Positions 9,923 through 18,101 of a DNA stretch of 64,000 nucleotides are shown piece by piece. Position 1 is the stretch's first letter; each line of letters starts with the position of its first letter. The stretch lies in assembly GCA_003963305.1 (NCBI GenBank), contig RXJR01000022.1, forward strand, positions 1-64,000. The letters are read 5' to 3'. Below the pieces are notes generated by a model. The model saw only the letters and a program-made list of their open reading frames with translations, was not told where the DNA came from and did not search any database. The DNA comes from Candidatus Melainabacteria bacterium (GTDB lineage Bacteria > Cyanobacteriota > Vampirovibrionia > Obscuribacterales > Obscuribacteraceae). The position numbers and the translations under genes are program-made.

Positions 9923-11281
9923 CTACTCGCCCGGTTTTTTAACTTTCGACCAGAGTTTACCGAGCCAGCCAGAATTTTGTTGCAAGACCGGATCGACAGT
10001 ATCCGCTGGTGGCGTATACGCCACCTCCTTTAGTGCCGAAGGAAAGTCGACGCCGGTTTTCTGGCAGTAATGAAGAACGGCTACAGCGTGACTATTGGTG
10101 AGAATATCGTCGTCTACAAATCCCTGTGCCTGCACCGCAGCTTGCAGTAGTTTTTTATCGATTACGCCGGTTGAAAGCATTACCTCGCCAAGGCTCACAT
10201 TGAGTTGGCGGCTGACACCTTCTGCTTTTGCCATCTCTTGCGGTGTCAGGCAACCTGCTTGCTGCAAAATTTCGATGACTGAGTTTGCCCGCGCAATTTC
10301 GTCTTCTTTGCTGCTTCTCTCAGAAAGAATGGTTTCGATTGGGCAGTTGCGTGCGTTGGCAGCGCGCAGAATGTCAGCTGCCTGGGCTCCTGTCAGATTA
10401 CCTTTGGCGACCATATCCTGCAGTTTCAGACTTTCCTTGAGCATGGTCTCTGAGATCATGCCGTTTTGCACGAGTATCTGCCCGACGGGCTGCTGCTGAA
10501 CCAGTCCCATCTCAATTGCTGAAATTTTGTCGCCTTCTGTGACCAGACCAGCAGACATGAGCAAGTCACCGACCCGGATATTGGCCTGCGACGGCTTGTA
10601 GGCACCTACTTCCTGTAGCGAGACTTCTATCGTCTGGTGTTTACGAGCAGCAGCACGCATGCCGCTGACCGCCTGCTCTTTGGTGATCTTTCCATCGCGG
10701 AGAAGCACCTGGGCTGTCAATGCGGAGGCGAGCAGGGTAGATGGAAGGGCCCGAGCCAGGACAAGGCATCGCCCCAGAGGCAGATTGTTTTCCTGGCTTT
10801 GAGTCATCGCTTCTTCGAGATTCTCTCTCGTCACCGCGCCTGCCTCGAGAAGCAGTTCGCCAAGCTCGCTGCCGGGCATAGATTCACGCTGGGGCGCTTT
10901 CCATCCCAGTCTCGTGAACGCCTCTTCCAGAGGGATACAACCCTTGATGGCCACGTTCAGAGCGCGTATGCCAAACTCGGCTGAGATAACCCCTTCACGC
11001 AGCAAAGATTGTATTTCGATAGCTGTCTGTAAATCGCGTTCGGTCAACTCTCCGATGCCCATAAGCACCCGCCCGAGGGGAGTCGCCGACTTCTTAGCGA
11101 CCTGAAGCGCTTCGAGTAAGACCTCGGGTTTGATTACGTTTGCTGCTACCAGCAATTCGCCGATACGCTTTGGTCCGGCCCGTCGTTCCCTTGCAATCTC
11201 CAAACTCTTAAAACCCTTTGTAGTGCCAACCACTGCCAACAACAATCGAACGCCAACTATGCGCCCTGCGGCTCTGAGCAA
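9923..11281 (-). CDS. Four tandem GspE/MshE N-terminal-type modules, no ATPase
   Basis: A 452-residue protein that is almost entirely four copies of a unit of about 90 residues, starting near residues 40, 140, 232 and 330. Each unit opens with (I/L/V)G(E/D)LL..AG.(I/V)T...L..A, then PLG..L...G, then a second helical half around Q.L...G.(I/L)....A...L..A. The opening half resembles the N-terminal domain of type II secretion/type IV pilus ATPases (GspE_N/MshEN), which in some members binds cyclic di-GMP. The ATPase domain that normally follows is absent. A free-standing nucleotide-binding scaffold is inferred. The first codon is TTG; a later start is possible because the first 30 residues do not belong to a module. 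Confidence 0.65.
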   Translation of the reverse strand: MLRAAGRIVGVRLLLAVVGTTKGFKSLEIARERRAGPKRIGELLVAANVIKPEVLLEALQVAKKSATPLGRVLMGIGELTERDLQTAIEIQSLLREGVISAEFGIRALNVAIKGCIPLEEAFTRLGWKAPQRESMPGSELGELLLEAGAVTRENLEEAMTQSQENNLPLGRCLVLARALPSTLLASALTAQVLLRDGKITKEQAVSGMRAAARKHQTIEVSLQEVGAYKPSQANIRVGDLLMSAGLVTEGDKISAIEMGLVQQQPVGQILVQNGMISETMLKESLKLQDMVAKGNLTGAQAADILRAANARNCPIETILSERSSKEDEIARANSVIEILQQAGCLTPQEMAKAEGVSRQLNVSLGEVMLSTGVIDKKLLQAAVQAQGFVDDDILTNSHAVAVLHYCQKTGVDFPSALKEVAYTPPADTVDPVLQQNSGWLGKLWSKVKKPGE

Positions 11282-11388
11282 CGTTTCGCTGACTATTAGT
11301 CTATCAGGGTGGGTGATTTCGGACTAGCAATAGCGAAGCGGCAATCGAGCTACTTCCATCTTATGCCCCGAAAAAAAGAAAACAGAAA

Positions 11389-11417
11389 GATATTGGCCCC
11401 AAATTTGGGCCAATATC
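11389..11417 (-). terminator. Strong intrinsic terminator closing the secreted-paralog cluster
   Basis: An 11-bp perfect stem (GATATTGGCCC with GGGCCAATATC) and 7-nt loop, followed on the minus strand by TTTCTGTTTTC and then seven T. It lies 39 bp past the stop of the last paralog. Confidence 0.85.
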
Positions 11418-11455
11418 TCTCAAGAGCCAAACTAATTTCCCTAGGTCAAGACTTG

Positions 11456-11902
11456 TTAGTAGTTGTCGTCGTAAGGAACAACAAAGCCTTTGCCCTGGAA
11501 GATCATGCTGTGGCTGCCGCTGTGTGGGCTTGGGTAGCCTACGAAACCATGGTGGATGCCATAAGCAGCACCATGGAGAGCGCCATAAGCGCCACCGGCA
11601 GCGAATCCAACCGGTCCGCCGGTCAATCCGCCAGCGATCAACTCGTACACGCCATCTTCGTTACCGAGGTTGCGTGCAACCATTTTCGTTCCACCGATTG
11701 AGCCTTTGATAGCGTCCTGGAACATAGCTGTCGGGATATCCCAAGCTGTTGTGACTGCCATCGAAACTAAACGGCAAGGAAAATATTCAATTTCATACCA
11801 GACGCGTGCTGATTCAGGACGCTCTGGATACGCAAAACTTGGAACTGACAAACCGACAGTTAAGCCGACAGCAGCAAGCAGCGTGGAGAGTACTTTCTTC
11901 AT
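11456..11902 (-). CDS. Small secreted Gly-rich paralog 1 (family unrecognised)
   Basis: A 148-residue protein, the most divergent of four tandem paralogs between 11.4 and 13.3 kb. The signal peptide ends at VPSFA. The mature part has two glycine-rich hydrophobic stretches (IKGSIGGTKMVARN and GGLTGGPVGFAAGGAYGALHG) around the family's GNEDG motif. These stretches look like glycine-zipper segments that could pack in or against a membrane. Unlike its three neighbours it lacks the C-terminal KPFS motif and instead ends in a His/Ser/Gly-rich tail. The ATG at 11902 with GGAG seven bases before it is preferred over the upstream in-frame TTG. I do not recognise a named family; an envelope role is inferred from export and composition only. 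Confidence 0.75.
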   Translation of the reverse strand: MKKVLSTLLAAVGLTVGLSVPSFAYPERPESARVWYEIEYFPCRLVSMAVTTAWDIPTAMFQDAIKGSIGGTKMVARNLGNEDGVYELIAGGLTGGPVGFAAGGAYGALHGAAYGIHHGFVGYPSPHSGSHSMIFQGKGFVVPYDDNY

Positions 11903-11939
11903 TTTTAACTCCAATCTTCCTAGTTTTTAAAAGCCAGCC

Positions 11940-12344
11940 TTATTTCTCTTCCATGGTGATGTAGGACCAGCGGCTGAATGGTTTTTCCCAGCCGAGCTTC
12001 CAACCATGTTTAGCGCCCTTGACACCGCTTTCAGCGCCACCAAGCACCATGCCTACTCCGCCACCGAGTGGGAAGGCTGCAATCTGCTGGGAAACACCCT
12101 TTTCGTCGCCGAATTTGCCGGCTACGTGGTGCATACCGCGGTGTGAACCGTGATAACCACCTTCGATAGGACCACTTACTAATCCGCTAACAGCAGCGCC
12201 ACTCAAGGCACCTGCGGTTCTAAAAGGCGCCATCAGCACCCAATGTATTGGTTTGGCTTCGTAGTCGAGGGCAAAGGCTGGAGCCGCTGCACCGACCAAC
12301 ATCATTGCTGAGCAAACAATACGACCTAGAGATTTCATCTTCAT
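11940..12344 (-). CDS. Small secreted Gly-rich paralog 2 (family unrecognised)
   Basis: A 134-residue protein with a signal peptide ending at APAFA. The mature region repeats the cluster's architecture: an opening hydrophobic segment, glycine-rich SGPIEGGYHGSHRGMHH, the GDEKG motif, a second glycine-rich segment (GGGVGMVLGGAESGVKGAKHG) and the C-terminal signature GWEKPFSRWSYITMEEK. The final block is nearly the same in paralog 3 and recognisable in paralog 4, so it is under selection. It is rich in His in the first glycine segment. Function is unknown. It lies between two hairpins and 37 bp from paralog 1, so they could be one transcript. GGTGG precedes the ATG. Confidence 0.76.
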   Translation of the reverse strand: MKMKSLGRIVCSAMMLVGAAAPAFALDYEAKPIHWVLMAPFRTAGALSGAAVSGLVSGPIEGGYHGSHRGMHHVAGKFGDEKGVSQQIAAFPLGGGVGMVLGGAESGVKGAKHGWKLGWEKPFSRWSYITMEEK

Positions 12345-12368
12345 TTACCACCGTCTTTCCAGTTAAAT

Positions 12369-12401
12369 ACGGCCCGAGGGTTTGGCTCGACCTCGGGCCG
12401 T
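12369..12401 (-). terminator. Hairpin between secreted paralogs 3 and 2
   Basis: An 11-bp perfect stem (ACGGCCCGAGG with CCTCGGGCCGT) and 11-nt loop, directly after the paralog 3 stop on the minus strand. No clear U tract follows in that direction (ATTTAACTGG). It may be an RNA-stability or partial-termination element that sets the ratio of the paralogs. Confidence 0.55.
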
Positions 12402-12408
12402 CAGTTTT

Positions 12409-12786
12409 CTACTTTTCTTCAGTAACGATGTACGATTCGGTGCTGAATGGTTTTTCCCATCCAGTATTAGCGCCATGGTAGAGACCATGAACGGCACCGT
12501 ATGGAACACCAAAGACCATTCCGATAGGAATGCCCATCACTGCTCCAACAATGTTCTGTTTCCAGCCATTTTCATCGCCGAAAGCAGAGGCAAGTCCATG
12601 CCAGCAATGCTTAGGACCAGAATAGACGCCACCGATGATAGCGCCTTGTGGCGTATCAATGATGACGGCTGTGGTCGCGCCGAGCAAGCTTGCGCCTGAG
12701 CTGAGCGGACCATCTGCAAATGAGGGTGCGGCTGTTCCGATCGAAACAACTGCAGCACTCAACAACATCAACATTTTGTTTTTCAT
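12409..12786 (-). CDS. Small secreted Gly-rich paralog 3 (family unrecognised)
   Basis: A 125-residue protein with signal peptide LMLLSAAVVSIGTAAPSFA. The mature protein has a glycine-rich hydrophobic stretch (TPQGAIIGGVYSG), the GDENG motif, a second stretch (VMGIPIGMVFGVPYGAVHG) and the C-terminal block GWEKPFSTESYIVTEEK shared with paralog 2. A single mature Cys (in KHCWHG) has no conserved partner in the others. The ATG at 12786 has AGGTGA at the correct distance; an in-frame TTG 18 bases upstream is less likely. Function unknown. Divergence between the copies is high in sequence but their spacing and motifs are kept, which points to an old tandem duplication rather than a recent one. Confidence 0.76.
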   Translation of the reverse strand: MKNKMLMLLSAAVVSIGTAAPSFADGPLSSGASLLGATTAVIIDTPQGAIIGGVYSGPKHCWHGLASAFGDENGWKQNIVGAVMGIPIGMVFGVPYGAVHGLYHGANTGWEKPFSTESYIVTEEK

Positions 12787-12803
12787 TTGATATTCACCTG
12801 ACA

Positions 12804-12832
12804 AGGAGGATGGTTCGGTGAACCACCCTCTT
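12804..12832 (-). terminator. Hairpin between secreted paralogs 4 and 3
   Basis: A stem of about 11 bp (GAGGaTGGTTC with GAACCAcCCTC, one mismatch) and 3-nt loop, 40 bp past the paralog 4 stop. There is no long U tract on the minus strand. It overlaps the leader of paralog 3 and so could also affect its translation. Confidence 0.5.
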
Positions 12833-12872
12833 AATCCTCACAACAACTTAGTACTTAGAGTTCATTAGTTGA

Positions 12873-13262
12873 CTATTCATCTTTGAAAGTGAATGTGTCC
12901 TTGCTGAACGGTTTTGAATAACCTTCTTTGGCACCATGTACGGCACCATCAAACATACCGTAAGCACCGCCGCCGACAAAACCAAATGGTCCGCCGAGTA
13001 CTTGACCGAAGAACTGGCATCCGCCGTTATCTTCGTTGCCAAGCTTACCAGCCGTAGCTTTCGAGGCTTTTATGTAGCCTTTAACACTGTCTTTGAAAGC
13101 ACCCAAAGGTACTCCAGCAGCCATACCAACTCCAGTCCCGACTACACGCACTGGGAAAACCACAATGCTTTTGAAAGTGTCATCGTCAGCGAACGAAGGT
13201 GCTACCAACGAGCCGACTAGAGCCGAGGCTAGAATGAAAGAGGACGCTAACTTCTTAAGCAT
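12873..13262 (-). CDS. Small secreted Gly-rich paralog 4 (family unrecognised)
   Basis: A 129-residue protein, first in transcription order of the four paralogs. The signal peptide ends at APSFA. The mature part shows the same layout: hydrophobic glycine segment (VGTGVGMAAGVPLGAF), GNEDN motif, second glycine segment (VLGGPFGFVGGGAYGMFDGAVHG) and the C-terminal motif GYSKPFSKDTFTFKDE, a looser version of the KPFS block. It is closest to paralog 1 in the GGGAYG...HGA segment and to 2 and 3 at the C-terminus, so it may represent the ancestral form. The ATG at 13262 follows GGAG by six bases. Its promoter must lie in the long gene-free stretch upstream. Confidence 0.76.
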   Translation of the reverse strand: MLKKLASSFILASALVGSLVAPSFADDDTFKSIVVFPVRVVGTGVGMAAGVPLGAFKDSVKGYIKASKATAGKLGNEDNGGCQFFGQVLGGPFGFVGGGAYGMFDGAVHGAKEGYSKPFSKDTFTFKDE

Positions 13263-13851
13263 GCAAATCTCCATCTCTTAGCAATCACTACCACCAATCC
13301 TGGACCAACTCGGCCACAAGACATGCACCATTGTACCCATTTTCTTGTGAAGGTCCATCTTTGTGGCTGTTGAAATTTATAGTAGGTATGCGAAGACGTA
13401 CTACAGCGCCTTTTCTTGCGCGTTTTTTATCCTTGTAAAATGTTTGTTTGAATTCGTCATCACTTTGCAAGTCGTATATGCGCTGATACGTCGCTCGCTA
13501 ATACATAAAGCCGGTCGCCAAGCGCTTCTTGCCGAATTTCCTGGCACCACAGGTGATTCCAAGAGATGATCTGGTGGTAGATCGAAGAGTCCGAAGCGTG
13601 GTGTTGGCGAAGCGGCAGATAATCTACTTGCAAAGAGATGAGGTCCGGTGCTTGGAAACACCGCCGATGATACCAAGAGTATTTGACTGCAAATCTCTTG
13701 CGATTGTTCCCGGCAATAAGACCTGTGGCTTTTTGCAAGCGATCTAACGTCAATGCACAACCTGGCAAAAGACAAAGTCGCTCCTGGAAGCCACGTGAGA
13801 GCTCAGGTTTTGGCGCGACCTGCGCCTGCTGGACGATGAAGGTTTTGTCGA
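13263..13851. other. Intergenic region of about 590 bp, no gene supported
   Basis: This stretch lies between the first secreted paralog and the end of the glycosyltransferase gene. It should contain the promoter of the paralog cluster. Two overlapping minus-strand frames of just over 100 codons lie here, but their composition (many Ser, Arg, Cys, no domain pattern) and lack of ribosome-binding sites argue against coding. A decayed gene or an RNA is possible; I can show neither. Confidence 0.35.
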
Positions 13852-15222
13852 CTATGTTGCGTCAGTAAGTGAATGAGCTACGCCGACGTGCTCTGTCGGA
13901 TGCCATGTCGATGCACTCTTGCCGAAAATAATCTGACAGAAGGAGACGAAAATTACAGGTACCCAGTGTGCGAAAACATATGTACCGACCTGGAAGCTAT
14001 GCCAGAGTGTGCGCCAGATCGACATCTTGTTTCGATAAAGGCGAATCGCCACGAACAGATTCAACTGACTGACGATGAACACTGCCAGTGATATCAGCGC
14101 GAAAAACTTGCCGTATGTGGGAACGCCCATCGACAGTCTGGTTATCTCGCTTGTCACTTCAAGAAACATCAGTGCGGGCACAACGAAATAGACGGTAAAT
14201 GCGATCGTATCGAGTCTCTCAACAAGAGAAAGTCTGGTGGGTGAATTAAGCGGAAAGATGTAATCGAGATAGCGTCGAATGCTGCCCTCCGCCCATCTTC
14301 TGCGCTGCCTCAACAAGCCCTTGATAGTAGGAACGCCTTCTTCCCAGACATACGCATGCGGGCAGAATCTGACGTCCCAATTGCTGACGAGTAAACGCAT
14401 GCTCAAGTCGAGATCGTCTGTGAGCGACTTATTGTTCCAACCGCCGACGTCAATCAACGCGGCTCGCTTTATGAGCTGACCGTTGCCACGCAATTCCACG
14501 GCACCACCGATGAGGTCACGCCCCATCTGGAAGTGAGTATCCATGGCGTATTCTGAAGCCTGGCATTCGACCAGAGTGCCAGTCTGGTGCTCAAAAATTC
14601 GTTTTTGTGCTTGCACCGCACCGACTCCCTCTTGATCGAGAACAGGCAGAGTCAGTGCAAAAAAGTTAGGTGCCACGTAAGCATCTGCATCGAAAACTGC
14701 CACCACTTCGCCCTTAGCACGCGGCAGTGCTTCGTTCAAAGCTGCAGATTTACCCGGGCAGCTTCCATAAGTGCGATTGATGACACGTAAGCGAGGAAAT
14801 TCTTTCTTTAAACGTTCGAGAATGAAAGGTGTCTCATCAGTTGAGCAATCGTCGATGATCCAGAGATAGAAATTCTCGTAATCGAGCTTGAAGAAATTGC
14901 GGATCGTATTTTCTATTACGCGCTGCTCATTTTTGGCGGCGATGAAAATGTCAATCCAGGGCTTCCACGCATCGTCTGGGTCGGTGTCTTTGCCGGTTAC
15001 TGCCAGATAGCTGCCGTCGGGCTGTTTGACCAATCCTGCCTTGCGAGCTTTCCGGCGCCACCTTCCCTGCGCGGCCATGAGCCAGACGCTGTGCGTCACC
15101 ATAACGACGACCGCTACAGAAAGCAAAATCAGAACCTCCGGACCGGTGACGAAATCATCGATTGACTTCAGTCCGATCCAGACGGCGAGCGTTAATGCAG
15201 CTAGGATTATTCGATCTCTCAT
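13852..15222 (-). CDS. Processive family 2 glycosyltransferase, membrane-bound
   Basis: A protein of about 456 residues with two N-terminal membrane helices, a cytoplasmic GT-A domain and about three C-terminal helices. It is laid out like PgaC/IcaA or hyaluronan/cellulose synthases. The catalytic series is complete: IDDCSTDET for nucleotide sugar, FDADAY (DxD metal site), the TDDLD acceptor-site aspartates and QRRRW for processive chain growth. It would polymerise a beta-linked polysaccharide from a UDP- or GDP-sugar at the cytoplasmic membrane; the sugar cannot be told. No PilZ domain or partner export gene is adjacent. The ATG at 15222 is used; an in-frame TTG lies 21 bases upstream. It is followed in the same direction by nothing for about 590 bp. 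Confidence 0.85.
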   Translation of the reverse strand: MRDRIILAALTLAVWIGLKSIDDFVTGPEVLILLSVAVVVMVTHSVWLMAAQGRWRRKARKAGLVKQPDGSYLAVTGKDTDPDDAWKPWIDIFIAAKNEQRVIENTIRNFFKLDYENFYLWIIDDCSTDETPFILERLKKEFPRLRVINRTYGSCPGKSAALNEALPRAKGEVVAVFDADAYVAPNFFALTLPVLDQEGVGAVQAQKRIFEHQTGTLVECQASEYAMDTHFQMGRDLIGGAVELRGNGQLIKRAALIDVGGWNNKSLTDDLDLSMRLLVSNWDVRFCPHAYVWEEGVPTIKGLLRQRRRWAEGSIRRYLDYIFPLNSPTRLSLVERLDTIAFTVYFVVPALMFLEVTSEITRLSMGVPTYGKFFALISLAVFIVSQLNLFVAIRLYRNKMSIWRTLWHSFQVGTYVFAHWVPVIFVSFCQIIFGKSASTWHPTEHVGVAHSLTDAT

Positions 15223-15322
15223 TGCCCGATAATTTTTACACAAACCCGGACATATATCTACTTACCACGAAGGAAGGTTGTCAAATCGTGCTAAGCCAAC
15301 AGCAGCAAGCGTACAGCAGCTT

Positions 15323-16660
15323 TTACGCCGGCTTTGCTTCCTCTCGTTTTGTCTCACTGAAGTGATGCAATCCGGCGACAAAAGTCGGTATTCCCAGAAT
15401 CAAAAGAGTCGTCGAAACGCCGCCTGGTAGGTTATCTGCGAACACGCCCGTGAGTATCACAGGGATAGTCGATGCAGCCGACATCGCCGTGTTTTGAGCG
15501 GCGAAGACCTTACCGCGCAGATCTTCGGGCACTGCAGCCTGAAGCGCCGCCTGGGTGGGCACTGCCACGCATGCGCATGAAATTCCGATCAGAACAGAAA
15601 AAAGTAAAGGAATTGTCATGAGCCAGCCACTGAAGTAAACGTTATGCCAGCCGAGATGCGGAAACAGGAATAGTTGCATATAACCCAGACTGGCCAGACC
15701 GCACATAAACAGTCCAAGGGCCGTGAAACCGCCGTAAGCGAGAAGGGGAGGATTTATGTGTCGCGCATAATGGCTGACTCCAAAATTTCCGATTCCCATT
15801 CCCAAACCGGCGGCGGCAATAATGTAGCCGAATTGGAATGCTTCTATGTGCATGACTTGTTCGGCCAGACCGACTGCGATGATGTTCAGAGTAATGATTG
15901 TGCTGAACAAGAGAGTAATTTTGACTATCGCTCTGAAGACGAGTGGATTGTTGACGATGTAGGCGATGCCGAATCTCAATTCCTCCCACCAGGCTTCTCG
16001 CCTGGTTTCCGAGCGCTTATTATCCTTAATAGAGCAGACCAGAATGGCGGCAATCAAAAATCCGGCTGCCACTACCCACGGAGCACCTTTGGTGCCTGAT
16101 TGCTCGATGATCGGTTCGCCTATGGCAAAACCGAATCCGAGTGCGATCATCATAGTCGTGAAAAAGAGTGAATTGGCGGCATAAAGTTCTTCGCTTTTTA
16201 CAATGCGAGGAATAGATGACGTCTCGGCCGGTCCAAAAAACTGCGATCCGATAGAAAGAAGAAACGCCAGTGCGAAGGTAGCCATCGGTGAATTTGTAAT
16301 CCACGGTACCGCCACCAGGGCTACGCAAACGCAACGTGCGAGGTTGGAGAAAACCAGCACCGATCGATTCGACCACCGATCAACATATACGCCTGCCACC
16401 GGACTTAACACCACGGCAGGAATTGTAAAAGCAACATAGAGTATGCTCGTCATCTGGGCCGCGCCGATTTCATGGCCGGCAACGCGGGTTACTTGTTTTG
16501 CCGTCAAGACGGCAACGAACAAGACGAAGACTGCCCGGTCGGCAAACTGTGAAAATACCTGCGCAATCCAGAGCTGCATGAACTGACGATTGCGAAAAAG
16601 AGATCCGTAACCGCTTGTTCTGGATGGAGTGGTTGGAGGATCTGTGGTTTGAGATGACAC
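15323..16660 (-). CDS. MFS transporter, EntS-like drug/siderophore exporter type
   Basis: A 445-residue protein with twelve predicted membrane helices. The family pattern appears as FRNRQFMQLWIAQVFSQFADRA at the start and AGVYVDRWSNRSVLVFSNLARC after helix 2 (the MFS loop motif with DR..NR). This is the layout of the EntS/MefA group of the major facilitator superfamily. These proteins are proton-driven exporters of siderophores, macrolides or other amphiphiles; the substrate is not predictable here. The start codon is GTG at 16660 without an obvious ribosome-binding site. It lies between a glycosyltransferase and lpxA on the same strand, with about 80 and 155 bp gaps, so co-transcription is uncertain. 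Confidence 0.82.
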   Translation of the reverse strand: MSSQTTDPPTTPSRTSGYGSLFRNRQFMQLWIAQVFSQFADRAVFVLFVAVLTAKQVTRVAGHEIGAAQMTSILYVAFTIPAVVLSPVAGVYVDRWSNRSVLVFSNLARCVCVALVAVPWITNSPMATFALAFLLSIGSQFFGPAETSSIPRIVKSEELYAANSLFFTTMMIALGFGFAIGEPIIEQSGTKGAPWVVAAGFLIAAILVCSIKDNKRSETRREAWWEELRFGIAYIVNNPLVFRAIVKITLLFSTIITLNIIAVGLAEQVMHIEAFQFGYIIAAAGLGMGIGNFGVSHYARHINPPLLAYGGFTALGLFMCGLASLGYMQLFLFPHLGWHNVYFSGWLMTIPLLFSVLIGISCACVAVPTQAALQAAVPEDLRGKVFAAQNTAMSAASTIPVILTGVFADNLPGGVSTTLLILGIPTFVAGLHHFSETKREEAKPA

Positions 16661-16815: not shown

Positions 16816-17628
16816 CTATTCGAATGATTCGCCTTCATCGTCTTCGTCGGAACGTCTGGAAATAACCCCGCGTTTCGAAGTTCTATAGAATTCGACAATT
16901 TCAGCTACTTCGGGGAACGGCTCGATCTCTTTCTCGATTTTCTCCAGGGCAGCGCTCAGGTTGAGTTCGGCCCGATAAATCAGTCGGTACGCTTCTTTGA
17001 TAGCCTTTCGGTTAGCCGGTCCAATTTTGTTGCGTTTCAGTCCGACCGCATTAATACCGCGAACCGTGACCGGACGACCGTCGCACATCGCAAATGGTGG
17101 CATGTCCTGCCTGGTGGCGGAAAGGCCGCTCATCATCAACATGCGACCCAGTCGGCAGTGCTGGTGAATCACACAGTAGCCCGCCAGGATGGCATTGTCA
17201 CCGACCTGAACATGTCCGCCCAATGTCGAGTTATTAGCGAAGATCACACCATTGCCTACTTTACAGTCGTGGGCGATGTGCACATAGTTCATGAAGAAGC
17301 AGTCGTCACCAACCACTGTGACACCCTCTTTGGTGCCCCTGTGTATCGTGCAATATTCGCGGATCGTTGTGCGATTTCCGATTTGAACGCCGGTCGGTTC
17401 GCCTTTATAACCAAGATCTTGCGGGTCTAAACCGATTGCGGCTCCGGCATAAATATTGCAATCGTCACCAATAGTGGTGTGACCATCAATCACTACATGA
17501 GGTCCGATTTTAGTGCCCTTGCCGATTTTGACGTTTGGTCCAATTACGGCATAAGGTCCTATTTCGACAGTCTCGTGTAACTGAGCACCATCTGCGATTA
17601 CAGCTGATTTGTGTACTGTCAAATTCAT
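16816..17628 (-). CDS. lpxA: Acyl-ACP--UDP-N-acetylglucosamine O-acyltransferase
   Basis: A 270-residue enzyme that starts lipid A synthesis by moving a 3-hydroxyacyl chain from ACP to UDP-GlcNAc. The N-terminal two thirds are left-handed beta-helix hexapeptide repeats, seen as VEIGPYAVIGPNVKIGKGT and many similar turns. LpxA-specific features are GEPTGVQIGNRTTIREYCTIHRGT in short form (GEPT...IRE...IHRGT) and the catalytic His in VHIAHDCKVG. The C-terminal helical domain follows, then an extra acidic tail of about 15 residues. It overlaps fabZ by four bases (ATGA), so the two are translationally coupled. Its presence shows a lipid-A-bearing outer membrane. Confidence 0.95.
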   Translation of the reverse strand: MNLTVHKSAVIADGAQLHETVEIGPYAVIGPNVKIGKGTKIGPHVVIDGHTTIGDDCNIYAGAAIGLDPQDLGYKGEPTGVQIGNRTTIREYCTIHRGTKEGVTVVGDDCFFMNYVHIAHDCKVGNGVIFANNSTLGGHVQVGDNAILAGYCVIHQHCRLGRMLMMSGLSATRQDMPPFAMCDGRPVTVRGINAVGLKRNKIGPANRKAIKEAYRLIYRAELNLSAALEKIEKEIEPFPEVAEIVEFYRTSKRGVISRRSDEDDEGESFE

Positions 17629-18101
17629 ACTTGTGATGTTGATTCCTCTGGCTTGGTGATTGCGAAAGTAATCTCGCCCTCAACTGCGATTTTGTCGCCG
17701 ACCTTAGCCAGGACTTTAGCTTTGCCCAGCGGGCCGCGACGCTTGGTCAATTCCACTTCCATGTCCAGTCGATCGCCGGGAACAACCATGGTGCGGAACT
17801 TTACACCATCAATGCCCGTGAACACAGCCAGATGACCTTTGAATTCTTCTTCCATCAAAACGCAGATGCAGCCGAGCTGTGCGAGAGCTTCGATCATTAA
17901 AACACCAGGCATAATTGGCTTGAAAGGGAAATGTCCGTTGAAGAAATCTTCGTTGGCGGTGAGGTTCTTGAAGCCCACTGCTTTCTGTCCCGGTATCACT
18001 TGTGTGACCCGGTCCACAAGCAGAAAAGGATAACGATGAGGCAAAATCGCCTTGATCTGGGTGATGTCCAGGGTAATTTCTGACGTCGTAGCGGTGCTCA
18101 T
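17625..18101 (-). CDS. fabZ: 3-hydroxyacyl-ACP dehydratase
   Basis: A 158-residue hot-dog-fold enzyme that removes water from 3-hydroxyacyl-ACP in fatty acid elongation. The active site His and Glu are in the standard contexts GHFPFKPIMPGV and MIEALAQLG, and the start has the family's LPHRYPFLLVDRV. It is paired with lpxA, as in many Gram-negatives where both enzymes compete for or share 3-hydroxyacyl-ACP. An N-terminal extension of about ten residues is normal. The gene upstream is divergent (folE), so the promoter of this operon lies in 18102-18349. LpxC, often joined to fabZ in this operon, is not in the window. Confidence 0.95.
   Translation of the reverse strand: MSTATTSEITLDITQIKAILPHRYPFLLVDRVTQVIPGQKAVGFKNLTANEDFFNGHFPFKPIMPGVLMIEALAQLGCICVLMEEEFKGHLAVFTGIDGVKFRTMVVPGDRLDMEVELTKRRGPLGKAKVLAKVGDKIAVEGEITFAITKPEESTSQV

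Follow-up and report, generated by a model that had tools for sequence, protein, structure and literature searches.

Gene organization of the locus

The window analysed here is a 64,000-nt stretch of DNA from the 7.48-Mb genome of a member of Obscuribacterales (Vampirovibrionia, Cyanobacteriota). It contains four adjacent minus-strand ORFs of 125–148 codons (hereafter, the tetrad), which span 11456–13262 and are numbered in the order of transcription as gene 1 (P0004), gene 2 (P0003), gene 3 (P0002) and gene 4 (P0001) (Table 1). The nearest named relatives of the encoded proteins are found in Obscuribacterales and Melainabacteria assemblies. An alternative start of gene 1 is possible four codons upstream, at 13274 (MEIC-MLKK). 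A stretch of approximately 20 nt ahead of gene 1 (window 13263–13290, GCTAAGAGATGGAGATTTGC) is almost identical across the four relatives compared and may either encode the MEIC extension or act as a translation signal.

Table 1. Positions of the tetrad genes, the associated RNA elements and the upstream genes in the window
Feature	Position	Strand	Remarks
Intrinsic terminator of the operon	11385..11421	-	15-bp stem; z -7.1
3' UTR element GTTTGGCTC	11424..11432	-	Exact complement of loop 12380-12388
Gene 4 (P0001)	11456..11902	-	148 aa; predicted helical hairpin; near-invariant C-terminal tail replacing KPFS
Gene 3 (P0002)	11940..12344	-	134 aa
Hairpin between genes 2 and 3	12369..12401	-	11-bp stem; z -4.8; loop 12380-12390
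GAGCCAAAC in the gene 2-3 hairpin loop	12380-12388	-	
Gene 2 (P0003)	12409..12786	-	125 aa
Hairpin between genes 1 and 2	12806..12830	-	Stem GAGGGTGGTTC/GAACCATCCTC; z -2.6
Gene 1 (P0004)	12873..13262	-	129 aa; signal peptide, two predicted helices, C-terminal KPFSKDTF
Family 2 glycosyltransferase	13852..15243	-	At 24 of 29 named loci with 3 kb upstream
MFS transporter	15323..16660	-	At 27 of 29 named loci with 3 kb upstream
lpxA (lipid A synthesis)	16816..17628	-	TIGR01852, 336 bits, over the cut-off
fabZ-like gene	17625..18101	-	Putative, named from the sequence

By inspection, all four proteins carry Sec-type signal peptides, which end in VAPSFA (gene 1), AAPSFA (gene 2), AAPAFA (gene 3) and SVPSFA (gene 4). 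The centre of each protein is marked by GNEDNG, GDENG, GDEKG or GNEDG, respectively. In three of them a C-terminal KPFS block is followed by an aromatic residue (KPFSRWSY, KPFSTESY and KPFSKDTF), and the gene 4 protein contains GYPSPHSGSHSM in its place. The last 25 residues of the gene 4 protein (GYPSPHSGSHS...PYDDNY, window 11456–11530) are histidine-rich and almost invariant throughout the order. An earlier note on this DNA had described four tandem small-protein genes with (A/V)P(A/S)FA signal peptide ends, a central G(N/D)E motif in all four and KPFS plus an aromatic residue in three, and all of these features were found. Its description of large sequence divergence with kept motif spacing also agrees with our data, the other three proteins being 32, 31 and 38% identical to P0001; the spacing would be kept because the helical hairpin fold predicted below is conserved.

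Comparison with protein family libraries

No NCBIfam family matched the four proteins at E-values up to 1. The best Pfam match was Romo1, in one of the four (E = 0.0012, 19.6 bits versus a cut-off of 27.6). Among 140 members of the family, Romo1 was matched in 33 (best E = 0.0012), C19orf12 in 15 (0.0024) and Tim17 in 14 (0.0023). Romo1/Mgr2 and Tim17/22/23 are mitochondrial inner-membrane proteins, and, judged by sequence, the Romo1 and Tim17 matches are too weak for filing the tetrad family there. Searches of the PHROG, PADLOC and PDB sequences yielded no convincing match to the tetrad proteins; a PDB match to a Veillonella S-layer protein was dismissed, as it covered chiefly the signal peptide. 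Therefore, the designation of the tetrad as an unrecognised family stands. Among the papers listed on glycine zippers in Obscuribacter/Melainabacteria or in cyanobacteria, none described this family in its title or abstract.

Several families were considered individually. The proteins did not fall among the 17-kDa antigens or glycine-zipper lipoproteins, the placement that the earlier note had named as speaking against novelty: PF05433 did not match any of the four proteins, its match in the whole-genome search was on another contig and not at the tetrad, and the lipobox cysteine is absent from all four window proteins, which end their signal peptides in PSFA or PAFA. A simple lipobox pattern fits 4 of the 168 distinct family members. 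The YMGG profile reached 9.8 bits on P0003, under its cut-off of 28.9, and the TraT profile PF05818 matched 6 of the 140 members with a best E-value of 0.15, also under the cut-off. TIGR04073, a candidate family of exosortase-associated proteins, was rejected, because it exceeded the cut-off in none of 40 genomes, did not match at the tetrad and was not in the best 25 of 29 families.

Distribution, age and selection

A profile of the four proteins identified six places in their own genome, namely the tetrad and two distant paralogues, and matched 47 of 60 relative genomes. Within the same order, 34 of 39 genomes, counting the one analysed here, had matches of tetrad strength (E below 1e-38). 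A contig scan of the named genomes called 44 loci, 36 of which contain all four genes in the same order. The other eight comprise L072 (one gene at a contig end), six single distant relatives and L078 (Deltaproteobacteria), which was dropped as a false match lying on the strand opposite an RseP-like frame; L086 and L087 were set aside as weak matches. In a tree of 168 distinct sequences, genes 1–4 form four clades of 39 (including the contig-end copy L072), 39, 41 and 40 members. Therefore, the duplications predate the two families of the order that were sampled. The dN/dS values between the window and L038 are 0.09, 0.11, 0.08 and 0.06 (0.052/0.555, 0.060/0.549, 0.056/0.696 and 0.035/0.574), and the tetrad is thus under strong purifying selection. 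An old, selected family, as claimed earlier, is what these four orthologue clades and dN/dS values of approximately 0.06–0.11 indicate.

More distant relatives were found elsewhere in the phylum. Among 244 genomes sampled across it, eight match: the own genome, five genomes of one family outside the order, which includes a Caenarcanales assembly, and two weakly matching genomes. When 14 chosen genomes were re-searched, further weak relatives were detected in another family of the class; most of these end in a PFSxxS-type block, and some have an extra N-terminal stretch that reads like a coiled coil. One genome contains an extra gene 2-like copy outside the tetrad (L146, G015:C32:407878-408240). 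A full tetrad is also present in a record labelled Chloroflexi (L064). This tetrad groups with L062 (Obscuribacterales) in a tree of tetrads, and the record is therefore probably a mislabelled assembly.

Glycine register and predicted fold

The longest runs of glycine at a spacing of four in the mature proteins are 8, 5, 8 and 8 in P0001, P0002, P0003 and P0004, respectively. Of 20,000 shuffles of each mature part, 2 (0 in a repeat run), 238, 0 and 0 matched these runs. In the P0004 numbering, glycine occupies positions 90, 94, 98, 102, 106, 110 and 114 in 127–139 of the 140 aligned members and position 86 in 95. The longest run among the 140 members is eight in 76, seven in 32, six in 22 and five in 10.

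AlphaFold modelled P0004 (140 aligned sequences; pLDDT 84.4, pTM 0.65) with helices at 27–74 and 80–116 and a turn at 75–79 that corresponds to the GNEDN motif. The model of P0001 (51 sequences; pLDDT 70.5, pTM 0.53) has helices at 31–79 and 85–121 and a turn at 80–84 (GNEDG), with low confidence in the last 25 residues. The tetrad proteins are thus predicted to be antiparallel helical hairpins with G(N/D)E(D/K/N)G as the turn, with the reservation that these are single-chain models and that glycine-rich helices can be over-predicted as hairpins. Helix 2 is the helix with glycine at every fourth residue, and very close packing on helix 1 is therefore possible. Oligomerisation is plausible. Foldseek returned no structure matches at E ≤ 0.001, and the best match among solved structures, Tim23 (chain 8e1m_B; Z 5.7, rmsd 4.5, 75 residues), lies within the noise seen for helical proteins. 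The mature chains are weakly hydrophobic, a 19-residue window with a mean hydropathy of 1.6 or more being present in 40 of 140. This weak hydropathy, together with helices of 48 and 37 residues that exceed the bilayer, makes simple membrane spanning doubtful.

Intercistronic hairpins and long-range complementarity

The claim that hairpins separate the genes was borne out in part. In mononucleotide shuffles, z was below -2 for the 1–2, 2–3 and 3–4 intergenic regions in 27, 19 and 3 of 36 named relatives, respectively; hairpins are thus present between genes 1 and 2 and between genes 2 and 3, and the one between genes 3 and 4 was not upheld. The strong terminator said to end the set was clearly identified, with z below -2 in 33 of the 36 relatives (mononucleotide shuffles). 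The core of the gene 1–2 stem is kept in 22 of the 36 by a strict simple pattern. A dispersed-repeat origin of this hairpin was rejected, since the pattern has a single site in the genome. The gene 2–3 stem covaries: across 11 hand-picked sequences, 7 of its 11 predicted pairs have both bases replaced in one sequence or more.

The loop of the gene 2–3 hairpin holds (A/T)GCCAA, and TTGGC is located between gene 4 and the terminator, approximately 950 nt away. Among 39 distinct pairs of loop and 3' UTR regions, 25 contain both elements, 13 neither, one the loop element alone and none the UTR element alone. The two bases following GCCAA complement those preceding TTGGC in 23 of the 25 (AC/GT in 12 and GT/AC in 11; the exceptions are GC/GA and GC/AC). 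A 7-nt loop complement was found in all 265 pairings with UTRs of the same class and in none of 264 with UTRs of the other class. Perfect 8-mer complementarity was observed in 18 of the 25 versus 0.07 predicted by mononucleotide shuffles, and complementarity of 9 nt or more in 17 of the 39 versus 1.4 expected by the same shuffling, some cases reaching 15 nt. On the tree of tetrads, the switch looks like approximately one double change plus several joint losses; these are few independent events, and the 23 matching cases are therefore not independent. Between the gene 1 leader and the 3' UTR, 9-nt complementarity was seen in 8 of the 39 (2.45 expected), with differing sequences and no consistent pairing.

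From these sequence comparisons, a conserved pairing between the loop and the 3' UTR appears to shape the operon mRNA. This RNA link was absent from the earlier note and is new here.

Gene neighbourhood

At all 29 named loci that extend 3 kb upstream, at least one of the glycosyltransferase and transporter genes is present; the glycosyltransferase is missing in 5. lpxA was found at 21 of 28 tetrad loci with 4.4 kb upstream and was not seen in the remaining 7. The downstream gene (9923–11281), present in 25 of 34 loci, shows only a sub-threshold Pfam match to DUF4388; it is built of repeated segments.

Paralogues lie in other contexts, as seen at the best-scoring loci, which are not a random sample. 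A gene for a class A penicillin-binding protein (PBP) adjoins the single-copy relatives at all 10 Caenarcanales-type loci examined (L074–L077 and L080–L085); one of these proteins scored 209 bits for Transgly and 121.9 bits for Transpeptidase, and the rest were matched to it by BLAST. Among the loci examined, 10 Obscuribacterales genomes and 5 of the Caenarcanales family have a second paralogue next to ispH, and several genomes have a third next to a hydrolase gene. The ispH-side paralogues from the two orders are L006 (G000:C30), L102, L113, L133–L135, L138–L140, L144, L145 and L088–L092. lpxA, class A PBPs and ispH have established roles in envelope building, and we therefore place the proteins in the envelope, although this evidence from neighbourhood is indirect.

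Four Obscuribacterales genomes (G003, G020, G028 and G030) contain neither the tetrad nor its transporter neighbour, and all four are without lpxA over the cut-off. Joint loss of the tetrad and lipid A synthesis was rejected, because all four have lpxB and three of them have lpxC; G010 has the tetrad yet is without lpxC. The few genomes without the tetrad most likely lack this stretch through a missing contig or a local gap, and thus provide no evidence of function. In G005, one contig carries lpxA together with a partial transporter match, and we think that the tetrad lies past the contig end.

Possible role of the tetrad and alternatives

In our reading, the tetrad proteins are inherited vertically and form an oligomer of the cell envelope rather than a toxin or a pore, the location and the oligomeric state being what we infer. 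In full, we consider the tetrad to be an old chromosomal operon whose four paralogous products are Sec-exported envelope proteins forming a hetero-oligomer in a ratio tuned by the mRNA; we assign this view a probability of approximately 0.5. The mature proteins (about 100–125 aa) would each fold as an antiparallel helical hairpin, the glycine face of helix 2 packing very closely on helix 1 and possibly on neighbouring subunits. The conservation of four divergent subunits together in one order suggests a hetero-oligomer, which would have a fixed ratio and reside in or on the membrane side of the periplasm or the outer membrane, with the C-terminal KPFS tail (or that of gene 4) as a subunit contact site. 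The intercistronic hairpins and the long-range pairing may set the ratio or protect the gene 3–4 message. A broader version, which we put forward tentatively, is a class-specific envelope superfamily built on an unusually long zipper of eight glycines at an exact spacing of four, from which Obscuribacterales would have kept a four-subunit complex with subunit ratios fixed by the pairing of loop and 3' UTR over approximately 950 nt of mRNA.

The most credible of the other views of the proteins, though doubtful, is that they are helical hairpins that stay soluble in the periplasm, without entering a membrane, and serve as chaperones or bind peptidoglycan or lipid carriers. It accords with the modest hydropathy, with paralogues adjoining class A PBP and ispH genes, and with the resemblance of the near-invariant gene 4 tail and the class-wide PFSxxS motif to binding sites; however, tight helix packing explains glycine-lined faces better than ligand binding does, and no fold matches to known binders were found. 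The earlier note had suggested pore-formers or envelope fibres, and neither fits well with the lack of adjacent immunity or secretion genes, vertical inheritance and one conserved chromosomal place. Zipper-driven envelope fibres or amyloid-like surface aggregates seem quite improbable: glycine zippers are known in aggregating and amyloid proteins (PMC5380434) and several paralogues occur per genome, whereas the helical hairpins are confidently modelled and the strict glycine register and strong purifying selection differ from a constraint on composition only. Pore-forming glycine-zipper bacteriocins, secreted or contact-dependent like Caulobacter CdzC/CdzD, would likewise be small exported proteins encoded by adjacent genes, and CdzC/D are outer-membrane associated (PMC5380434). 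We nevertheless regard this as very improbable, given that the tetrad proteins have Sec signal peptides, that the set includes neither a transporter nor an immunity gene and that it keeps a single conserved chromosomal place order-wide, with no PADLOC match and no matches in plasmid and phage searches (one member protein each).

The complementarity of the loop and the 3' UTR might instead be a DNA inverted repeat, flanking a gene 3–4 segment that can invert or was once mobile. The same matched changes would then be expected, but no inverted gene 3–4 arrangement was found among the four-gene arrays listed, and the complementarity is mostly just 7–9 nt. Moreover, one copy is in the loop of a separately covarying stem and the other directly before the terminator, as expected for RNA, and we judge a DNA repeat unlikely.

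Non-photosynthetic sister lineages of cyanobacteria have been studied mostly from genomes. An order-wide operon and class-wide paralogues adjoining cell-wall and lipid-carrier genes point to a major envelope structure that has no name in any family library searched. The exact eight-fold glycine register provides a clean natural test of glycine-zipper helical assembly. If true, the covarying connection of the 3' UTR with a loop between two cistrons would be a distinct bacterial control of a polycistronic message, and the tetrad would represent both a new envelope complex and a new kind of operon-level RNA control.

Comparison with known systems

Caulobacter CdzC and CdzD, as described in PMC5380434, resemble the tetrad in being small, adjacently encoded, exported glycine-zipper proteins. 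Association with the outer membrane, established for Cdz, is proposed for the tetrad. The Cdz proteins (84–86 aa) use type I secretion, are accompanied by an immunity protein, kill other cells and show a patchy, often horizontal spread in that text, whereas the tetrad has Sec signals, four paralogues, vertical inheritance, envelope-gene neighbours and no immunity gene. TraT (PMC11733297; PF05818), which has helices instead of a beta-barrel at the outer membrane, is a possible precedent for the location of the tetrad; however, it is a lipoprotein decamer with a beta-sandwich ring, and the window proteins have neither a lipobox nor a beta domain. The rickettsial 17-kDa antigen and glycine-zipper lipoproteins (PF05433, PF13441 and PF13436) are likewise exported and have a glycine-rich zipper, and differ in the two respects noted above, the lipobox and PF05433. 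In Romo1/Mgr2 (PF10247) and Tim17/22/23 (PF02466), glycine-zipper helices are packed as hairpins, an arrangement also predicted for the tetrad proteins.

For the RNA, the icaR mRNA of Staphylococcus aureus offers a parallel, since its 3' UTR pairs with a distant upstream part, as proposed here (PMC3868564). The partner in icaR is the Shine-Dalgarno region of a single gene, whereas in the tetrad mRNA it would be the loop of an intercistronic hairpin within a four-gene message.
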